Shown here: piece by piece, positions 15,873-18,084 of the stretch
Position numbering within the stretch: position 1 is the stretch's first letter
Layout of the letters: each line of letters starts with the position of its first letter
Assembly (NCBI GenBank): GCA_947630625.1
Contig: CANRIL010000004.1
Coordinates: 1 to 64,000, forward strand
From: an uncultured Clostridia bacterium
Lineage (GTDB): Bacteria > Bacillota > Clostridia > Oscillospirales > CAG-272
DNA: 64,000 nt
Reading direction: 5' to 3'
Notes under the pieces: model-generated
The model's database searches: none
Seen by the model: the letters and a program-made list of their open reading frames with translations, nothing else
Told to the model about the DNA's origin: nothing
Translations under genes and position numbers: made by a program

Positions 15873-15920
15873 CAAACCCGAACGTTTCACCAATAGTTAA
15901 AACGTTCGGGTTTGAATGCT
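15873..15920. terminator. Intrinsic terminator between metY and tRNA-Leu
   Basis: 15-bp perfect stem CAAACCCGAACGTTT...AAACGTTCGGGTTTG. Confidence 0.75.
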
Positions 15921-15924
15921 TTAA

Positions 15925-16008
15925 TGCGGGTAAAAGGACTTGAACCTTCATGAAGTTGCCCTCACTAGAACCTGAATCTAGCGCGTCTGCCAATTCCGCC
16001 ATACCCGC
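15925..16008 (-). tRNA. tRNA-Leu (anticodon CAG)
   Basis: Reverse complement GCGGGTATGGCGGAATTGGCAGACGCGCTAGATTCAGGTTCTAGT...GGTTCAAGTCCTTTTACCCGCA folds as class II tRNA-Leu; anticodon loop TTCAGGT. Confidence 0.93.
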
Positions 16009-16019
16009 GAACTTTGTGA

Positions 16020-16130
16020 GCGGGTATGGTGGAATACTTGCACCAACTTGTTGGTGCTCACATACCCGCGAATTCTATGAGCGGGTGTGGCGAAATTTTT
16101 GCACCAGCTTGCTGGTGCCCACATACCCGC
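16020..16130. repeat. Two tandem 50-bp palindromic units (61-bp period) in the leader of tRNA-Leu(CAG)
   Basis: Units 16020-16069 and 16081-16130. Outer stem GCGGGTRTGG/CATACCCGC, inner stem GCACCARC/GYTGGTGC, 11-bp spacers starting GAA. Confidence 0.85.
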
Positions 16131-16162
16131 GAATGTTACGTCGGTTTTATCCGACGCGTGAT

Positions 16163-16191
16163 ATTATACACTATTCCGCCCGATTTGTAAA
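16163..16191 (-). promoter_or_regulatory. Promoter for tRNA-Leu(CAG)
   Basis: Minus strand TTTACA-N17-TATAAT. Confidence 0.75.
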
Positions 16192-16401: not shown

Positions 16402-18084
16402 TCAGAACAGCCCCGTTATCTTTCCCGTGTCGTCGACATCAATGCGCTCGGCGGCAGGGGACTTCGGGAGCCCCGGCATTGTGAGTATATCACCGGTGAG
16501 AACGACGATGAATCCCGCGCCCGCGGAAACCTTGACATTCTTGACAGTGACCGTGAAATGCTCTGGCGCGCCGAGCTTTGTCGGGTCGTCGGAGAAGCTG
16601 TACTGCGTCTTCGCTATGCACACAGGCATCCCGCCGAAGCCGAGCTTCGTCAGCTCGTCTATCTGCTTTTTCGCTGCGGGAAGAATGCTCACGCCGTCCC
16701 CTCCGTAAATGCGGCGGACAACAGCCTCGATCTTTTCCTCGATGCTCGCGTCAAGCTGATATGAGAACGAAAACTCTTCCTTTACTTCCCCTTCCTCGCA
16801 GAGGCGGACGACCTCGCGCGCCAGCGCTTCGCCACCCGCGCCGCCGTTCTCCCAAACGGTCGAGAGCACCGCATTGACGCCGAGCTCTGCGCACTTTTCA
16901 ATTATAAACTTAATTTCCGCATCCGTGTCTGTCGGGAAACGGTTGACCGCGACGACACACGGGAGATGGTAAACGTTTTTGATGTTCGAGACGTGGCGCA
17001 GCAGGTTCGGTATTCCTCTTTCGAGCGCCGCGAGATCCTCCGTCGCAAGCTCTGTCTTTGCGAGCCCGCCGTGCATTTTGAGCGCGCGGATTGTCGCAAC
17101 GACGACAACGGCGTCCGGCACAAGTCCCGCCGCGCGGCACTTGATATCGAGGAATTTCTCGGCTCCGAGGTCAGCGCCGAAGCCTGCCTCAGTGACCGTA
17201 TAATCGCCGAGCTTGAGCGCCGTCTTCGTCGCGATCACGGAGTTGCAGCCGTGCGCGATGTTCGCGAACGGTCCGCCGTGGACGAACGCGGGCGTTCCCT
17301 CAAGCGTCTGCACAAGATTCGGCTTTATCGCGTCGCGCAGAAGCGCCGTCATCGCGCCGACCGCGTTGAGCTGTCCCGCCGTGACAGGCTCGCCGCCGTA
17401 TGTATACGCGACTATCATCCGCGAGAGGCGCGCTTTCAGGTCGGAGATGGACTCGGCAAGGCAGAAGACCGCCATTATCTCGGTCGCGACCGTTATATCA
17501 AATCCGTCCTCGCGCGGCATTCCGTTCGCCTTGCCGCCAAGCCCGTCGACGATGAAGCGAAGCTGACGGTCGTTCATATCGACGCAGCGACGCCACGTGA
17601 TGCGGCGCGGATCAATTCCGAGAGAGTTGCCCTGCTGGATGTGGTTGTCTATCATCGCGGCGAGCAGGTTGTTAGCCGCACCTATTGCGTGAAAATCTCC
17701 GGTAAAGTGAAGGTTGATGTCCTCCATCGGTACGACCTGAGCGTATCCGCCGCCGGCAGCGCCGCCCTTGACGCCGAACACGGGACCGAGCGACGGCTCA
17801 CGGAGCGCGACCGTCACCTTTTTCCCTATTCTTGAAAGCCCGTCCGAAAGTCCTATCGTCGTCGTTGTCTTTCCCTCTCCGGCGGGAGTCGGCGTGATCG
17901 CCGTCACGAGGATGAGCTTTCCGTTTTTAAGATCATCCCGGTTCATAATGTCAGCTGACACCTTCGCCTTGTATCTTCCGTACTGCTCGATGTCCTCCTC
18001 GCGTATGCCCGCTTTCGCAGCGATCTCTGTGATCGGTCTTAATTCACAGCTCTGAGCGATTTCAATATCTGTCTTGTAAGCCAT
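16402..18084 (-). CDS. fhs: Formate--tetrahydrofolate ligase
   Basis: [43 protein letters not shown] and [11 protein letters not shown]. Confidence 0.96.

Follow-up and report, generated by a model that had tools for sequence, protein, structure and literature searches.

The locus lies in a window of 64,000 nucleotides from an uncultured Clostridia bacterium (contig CANRIL010000004.1), and all features of the transcription unit described here are on the minus strand. A gene for tRNA-Leu(CAG) was identified at 15925..16008 using ARAGORN, Rfam (RF00005) and folding. It is preceded at 16163..16191 by a sigma-A type promoter, TTTACA-N17-TATAAT, which had been proposed in a preliminary description made from the sequence alone and is confirmed here; the same layout precedes the tRNA in same-genus relatives. 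Transcription would start near 16156, giving a presumed leader of about 148 nt between the promoter and the tRNA. The region from promoter to tRNA folds better than its dinucleotide shuffles (z = -6.55). A leader hairpin, CGTCGGATAAAACCGACG (16139..16156), was found by sequence and folding at the presumed transcript start and is not conserved between species. Just beyond the tRNA 3' end, a perfect 15-bp inverted repeat (window 15873-15914), followed by a T-rich stretch on the minus strand, is probably the terminator of the tRNA unit.

Two tandem units of 50 nt, each followed by an 11-nt spacer, lie between the promoter and the tRNA, and their 61-bp period, as first described, was confirmed by sequence and repeat search. 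In the transcript sense, the tRNA-distal unit 1 (16081..16130) reads GCGGGTATGTGG-GCACCAGC-AA-GCTGGTGC-AAAAATTTCGCCACACCCGC from 16130 to 16081. It consists of a left arm, GCGGGTATG (16130-16122), an optional apical hairpin (16118-16101) and a right, antisense arm, AATTTCGCCACACCCGC (16097-16081), and is followed by the spacer TCATAGAATTC (16070..16080). The tRNA-proximal unit 2 (16020..16069) reads GCGGGTATGTGA-GCACCAAC-AA-GTTGGTGC-AAGTATTCCACCATACCCGC from 16069 to 16020, with its left arm at 16069-16061, its apical hairpin at 16057-16040 and its right arm, TATTCCACCATACCCGC, at 16036-16020. The spacer TCACAAAGTTC (16009..16019) adjoins the tRNA 5' end; a TCA...TTC-type spacer is common among other units. 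Direct 61-bp copies at 16000-16060 and 16061-16121 share 82% identity, and CATACCCGCGAA occurs three times at 61-bp spacing, the tRNA start keeping the same register.

The preliminary description had noted mimicry of the tRNA 5' end, and the left arm indeed copies tRNA nt 1-9. The similarity to the tRNA that it reported on the plus strand is also real, and its consequence had been missed: the 3' arm is antisense to tRNA nt 1-17 (16008-15992 in the window) and can capture it. The unit 2 right arm complements tRNA nt 1-16 with one C.A mismatch, and the segment 16020-16035 is a 94% inverted repeat of tRNA nt 1-16 (15993-16008). The tRNA 3' acceptor strand is in turn predicted by folding to be able to pair with a unit left arm. 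Among the tRNAs checked in the window's genome (41 found), an upstream antisense arm occurs only at tRNA-Leu(CAG) and tRNA-Leu(UAG), with scores of 13-14 against at most 8.6 at the others.

A unit thus has a left arm, a loop (sometimes with an extra hairpin), a right arm and a spacer. The left arm repeats tRNA nt 1-9 in direct orientation, followed by one extra base and GCG, a D-stem strand; the right arm is reverse-complementary to tRNA nt 1-17, its core ATTCCGCC facing nt 9-16. Unit length ranges from 43 to 61 bp. The common short form of about 43-45 nt in same-genus relatives is GCGGGTATG-T-GCG-loop-ATTCCGCCACACCCGC-TCANNNNNTTC, and the long units of the window differ from it by a further, apical hairpin within the loop. 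Hairpins of this kind occur in a minority of units and are unrelated in sequence between species (e.g., GTGCCCGC-AAA-GCGGGCAC), with perfect stems. The earlier observation that a G-C pair in the inner stem is exchanged for A-T with pairing kept stands for units 1 and 2, and a second compensatory exchange in the apical hairpin separates G000 (GCACCAGC/GCTGGTGC) from G006 (GCATCAGC/GCTGATGC); the stem that bears the exchange is, however, an optional loop insertion that most units do not have. Both units are predicted to form hairpins, as had been proposed, but their supposed cloverleaf likeness did not hold, as ARAGORN and Rfam detected no tRNA fold in them; a tRNA pseudogene or degenerate tRNA was rejected on this ground. 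In the window and related leaders, Rfam gave only tRNA at the gathering score, and otherwise weak sub-threshold noise.

A covariance model of the unit matched 48 of 397 sampled genomes of the host family, with 1-5 copies each, so that the units, whose search in relatives had been suggested, proved to be conserved. In a tally of better-quality genomes, 11 of 71 genera had matches; those in genus g54 are an unrelated hairpin repeat. The units come from about 10 genera. The units are nearly always directly 5' of a tRNA-Leu gene, with anticodon CAG, UAG, AAG (G724, G512) or GAG (G008, G005), and a few matches run off contig ends. In an order-level sample of 396 genomes, model matches were confined to the host family, and an order-wide pattern scan gave mostly chance matches outside it. 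No units were found across the class in 388 genomes under stricter filters, which can lose weak matches. A scan of 85,462 species genomes returned 13 contigs, all from metagenome-assembled Clostridia (rabbit, roe deer, sheep and similar sources), and collections of phage, plasmid and viral contigs gave no match. No prior description of these leader units was found in the texts of open-access papers, and the family appears to be undescribed so far.

Many tRNA-Leu loci of unit-bearing genomes have no units, and several sister species (G010, G002, G003 and G011) are without them; the sisters G007 and G010 differ by exactly one unit (one versus none). Because of these absences, the units are dispensable at any one locus. 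On the gene tree of formate-tetrahydrofolate ligase, unit presence is scattered and requires at least five changes, on a tree that is imperfect and blurred by two old gene subgroups; single loci gain and lose units freely. In the host family, this ligase (window 16402-18084; L294-L320) falls into two deep groups, with about 73-92% versus 63-65% identity to the window copy, a sequence difference that suggests old paralogues or transfer.

Several other features were observed in the tRNA-Leu leaders of the family. A second motif, roughly CCTCGGAGnnCnCnCTCCGTGTAAAAATTAAA, is present between the promoter and the units or tRNA-Leu in several genera, often inside a larger hairpin region (L039, L148 (G062), L062 (G001), L202 (G569), L219 (G483), L224 (G378) and L264 (G709)); Rfam gave no match to it in the scanned loci. 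Upstream of an intact tRNA, truncated copies of the 5' portion of tRNA-Leu, about 20-43 nt long and sometimes in tandem, lie at L190 and L189 (G634, G701), L192 (G558), L209 (G560), L230 (G527), L201 (G465) and L009 (G024). Some end at the anticodon loop and some have a structured D-loop insert; they look like integration footprints or longer decoys. The motif CGACTATGTTGCAAGCCGT, with variants, is common to leader inserts of different genera (L009, L230, L247, L280 and L284). Downstream in L062 (696-774; G001), a second gene resembles tRNA-Leu(CAG) but has a unit-like hairpin in place of the D-arm (Rfam tRNA score 29.7). In genus g53, the spacer between tRNA-Pro(GGG) and tRNA-Leu(CAG) is occupied by units in some cases and in others by another strong hairpin, e.g., GGGTGTC...GACACCC (L259, L265, L269, L090 and L093).

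We examined pairing in 55 distinct tRNA-proximal units, which are related by descent and not phylogenetically independent. The right arm pairs with nt 1-17 of its own tRNA in 801 of 935 cells, against 776.6 +/- 3.2 with shuffled partners (0 of 1000 shuffles as high), and cells changed on both sides number 35 against 14.6. Between the left arm and the tRNA 3' acceptor strand, pairing holds in 384 of 385 cells, against 358 +/- 2.5 with shuffled partners; the identity of the left arm to the tRNA can stem from slippage or conversion between direct repeats. The duplex energy of the right arm with its own tRNA is -26.06 kcal/mol, against -23.56 +/- 0.29 kcal/mol with swapped partners, none of 200 swaps being as good. 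Covariation had been proposed as a check of the unit hairpin: the outer in-unit stem did not exceed shuffles on a 16-unit alignment, and the pairings of the right arm with the tRNA and of the left arm with the 3' acceptor strand were stronger. On 55 units the outer stem does exceed shuffles, but with a left arm that copies the tRNA so does every other arrangement; the covariation is compatible with both helix sets. In cells where left arm and tRNA differ, 49 favor pairing with the tRNA, 0 with the left arm, 12 both and 3 neither, a count biased by the pattern-based choice of the core. When units were defined by the left arm only, core complementarity was at least 7/8 in 53 of 55 loci, most of which had been fetched with the unit model.

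Individual substitutions in the tRNA are matched in the adjacent unit. The tRNA change G13A (GGCGAAAT; g53, G697) faces a right arm ATTTCRCC, with C changed to T, and C11T in G519 (GGTGGAAT) faces ATTCCACC, with G changed to A. For G5A in G665 and G619, the tRNA sequence GCGGATG faces CATCC, and both arms are changed. In G008 and G005, a unit with the genus-typical loop precedes tRNA-Leu(GAG) and is rematched on both arms to the bases specific to the GAG tRNA, including positions 6 and 16, with one bulged G (AGTTCCGCCAC-G-TCCCGC versus GCGGGAGTGGCGGAACT); position 16 falls outside the in-unit stem. Conservation within the right arm is uneven: the part facing nt 9-16 is best kept, that facing nt 1-8 is looser and position 17 is free. 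The 97.5% conservation of the core is inflated, as the core was part of the search pattern and the unit model. The inserted base after left-arm nt 9 is retained in 55 of 55 units, and A.C at position 7 is frequent.

Folding was predicted with equilibrium models that include neither tertiary structure, modification, proteins nor co-transcriptional order. The hairpin of right arm and tRNA is predicted to be more stable than the in-unit hairpin in 55 of 55 cases, and the minimum-energy fold of almost all unit-bearing loci is several kcal/mol more stable than the combination of unit hairpins and cloverleaf. In this fold, the tRNA 5' end is paired with the last right arm, and a unit left arm substitutes for it against the 3' acceptor strand; GCG often pairs with the 3' strand of the D-stem, and the whole looks like a tRNA whose D-arm holds a giant insert. 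On its own, the tRNA forms the native acceptor stem with a predicted probability of about 0.95-0.99; with the leader this value drops to near 0, but in the unit-less sister G010 it stays at 0.92. Of 55 left-copy loci, 53 have a value below 0.1. Dinucleotide-shuffled leaders also fell below 0.1 in about 24-62% of cases, only 0-4% being as strong as the real leaders, and taken alone, this modelled equilibrium result is weak evidence. The leader RNA is predicted to be bistable, with two mutually exclusive folds in nearly every unit locus tried.

We tentatively favor the reading, although short of even confidence, that the units use decoy 5' ends to brake or switch tRNA-Leu maturation in cis; each left arm would serve as a decoy tRNA 5' strand and each right arm as antisense to tRNA nt 1-17. 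We infer here the transcription of the leader, the folding kinetics, the outcome of RNase P action and the regulation. In the productive fold, each unit would form its own hairpin and the tRNA its cloverleaf, and RNase P would cut before the tRNA. In the trapped fold, the last right arm would hold tRNA nt 1-17, with a left arm replacing them at the 3' acceptor and D-stem strands. During transcription, the unit hairpins would form first and the tRNA would fold afterwards; prompt cleavage by RNase P would fix the productive fold, and slow processing would allow the right arm to invade by branch migration from the core toward the more stable trapped fold. The leader would thus brake tRNA-Leu output with a strength set by unit number and processing speed. 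The genes still have to supply tRNA, so there must be a way out of the trapped fold. We saw no sign of a terminator, ligand or sensor. An inverted duplication of the tRNA 5' end is the probable origin of the units, which are probably gained and lost by slippage on the GCGGGTATG direct repeats. A more far-reaching form of this reading seems to us rather doubtful: maturation would be set by competition between the true 5' end and the tandem decoys for a built-in antisense arm, so that leucine-tRNA supply would respond to transcription speed, RNase P capacity or a leader-remodelling factor.

The main rival is that the units are a neutral by-product, an account that we consider a serious possibility without thinking it probable. 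A template switch at the tRNA 5' end would generate the inverted copy, slippage on GCGGGTATG would multiply or remove it, conversion with the adjacent tRNA would keep the arms matched, and RNase P would remove the leader with little effect. Template switching is known to create and maintain hairpins, its reverse-complement copies making perfect stems with apparent compensatory changes (PMC8794818), and could explain part of the unit pattern. The right arm is an inverted copy of nt 1-16/17 of the neighboring tRNA, as a template-switch product requires. The clean difference between G007 and G010, the 1-5 homogenized copies per locus, the left arm identical to local tRNA nt 1-9 and the apical hairpins that are perfectly stemmed yet unrelated in sequence all agree with this account. 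It fits less well that the right-arm part opposite nt 1-8, nearest to the tRNA and easiest to re-copy, is least conserved while the nt 9-16 core is kept, and that the inserted base and frequent A.C at position 7 persist, as frequent re-copying would erase such constant defects. The confinement to Leu tRNAs across about 10 genera and the reach of the GAG-locus rematch to position 16, beyond the in-unit stem, also speak against it. The retained defects, the uneven conservation and the GAG rematch point to selection, and some selection on the units is probable; the free loss of units from single loci speaks for weak or conditional selection.

Released leader pieces of about 45 nt might instead act in trans as sponges or antisense RNAs that base-pair with nascent tRNA-Leu or with its 5' halves. 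The core is complementary to tRNA nt 9-16 common to several Leu isoacceptors, each transcript has several unit copies, and the 3' external transcribed spacer of Escherichia coli leuZ is a precedent for a sponge cut from a tRNA precursor. We regard this as very unlikely, as each right arm fits the tRNA next to it and not a sequence common to all (none of 200 swaps was as good), and cis pairing is far more favorable. The least probable origin in our estimate is a small MITE- or REP-like mobile hairpin that inserts at the tRNA-Leu 5' end and restores it. Patchy presence, units bordered on both sides by direct repeats of the tRNA 5' end and, next to them in some leaders, truncated tRNA 5' copies that contain inserts would suit such an element. 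The units have no coding capacity in their 43-61 bp, no match in phages, plasmids or viral contigs, and no dispersal: the search of the window's own genome found only the tRNA locus and a 14-nt chance match, and almost all model matches in the family are at tRNA-Leu, so a dispersed repeat was rejected. The four matches elsewhere, in G278 of genus g54 (L240, L241), are false for the unit model and belong to an unrelated dispersed repeat, TTACTTTCTTGCGTGCCAAGAAAGTAACCAAAGAAGGCATACGGGGGTGAGGG...CCCCCACCCCCGT, with a CCCCCAC hairpin.

Among known systems, the tyrT tandem repeats of E. coli (rtT RNA) lie 3' of the tRNA, are about 178 bp long and repeat the tRNA 3' end in direct orientation. The units described here are likewise tandem repeats within a tRNA transcription unit, each with a piece of the tRNA's own sequence, but they lie 5' of the tRNA, are 43-61 nt long and combine a direct and an inverted copy of its 5' end. 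In T-box riboswitches and classical attenuators, too, helices of a leader RNA compete, and one of them binds a part of a tRNA or mimics it. Here, the downstream gene is tRNA-Leu itself instead of an aminoacyl-tRNA synthetase or amino-acid gene, and the leader has no terminator; a T-box was rejected, with no Rfam match in the window and none convincing in related leaders. A leader RNA with mutually exclusive helices, as predicted from sequence and folding, would be of a known kind, its unusual target being the tRNA itself. Unlike the template-switch hairpins described previously (PMC8794818), the units are tandem, are confined to tRNA-Leu leaders of a single family, retain constant defects and fit the tRNA next to them. 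Another report describes a disease-linked mutant tRNA in which pre-tRNA misfolding impairs RNase P processing (PMC8915964). As in the case described there, precursor folding is predicted here to affect 5' processing; in contrast to that mutant, the pairing is recurrent, matched to the tRNA and present in many bacterial species.

The units are real and recur within a single family of uncultured gut Clostridia. The usual view of bacterial tRNA genes is that control lies at the promoter and that RNase P removes a short, passive leader. If the units are neutral, they offer a clear natural series in which to measure how RNA hairpins that falsely look selected are built and maintained by template switching and slippage. 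If the cis-acting brake or switch is correct, tRNA maturation itself would be a possible control point in these bacteria, with a recurrent leader that is antisense to its own tRNA, is predicted to disrupt the cloverleaf and tracks the changes of that tRNA across isoacceptors.
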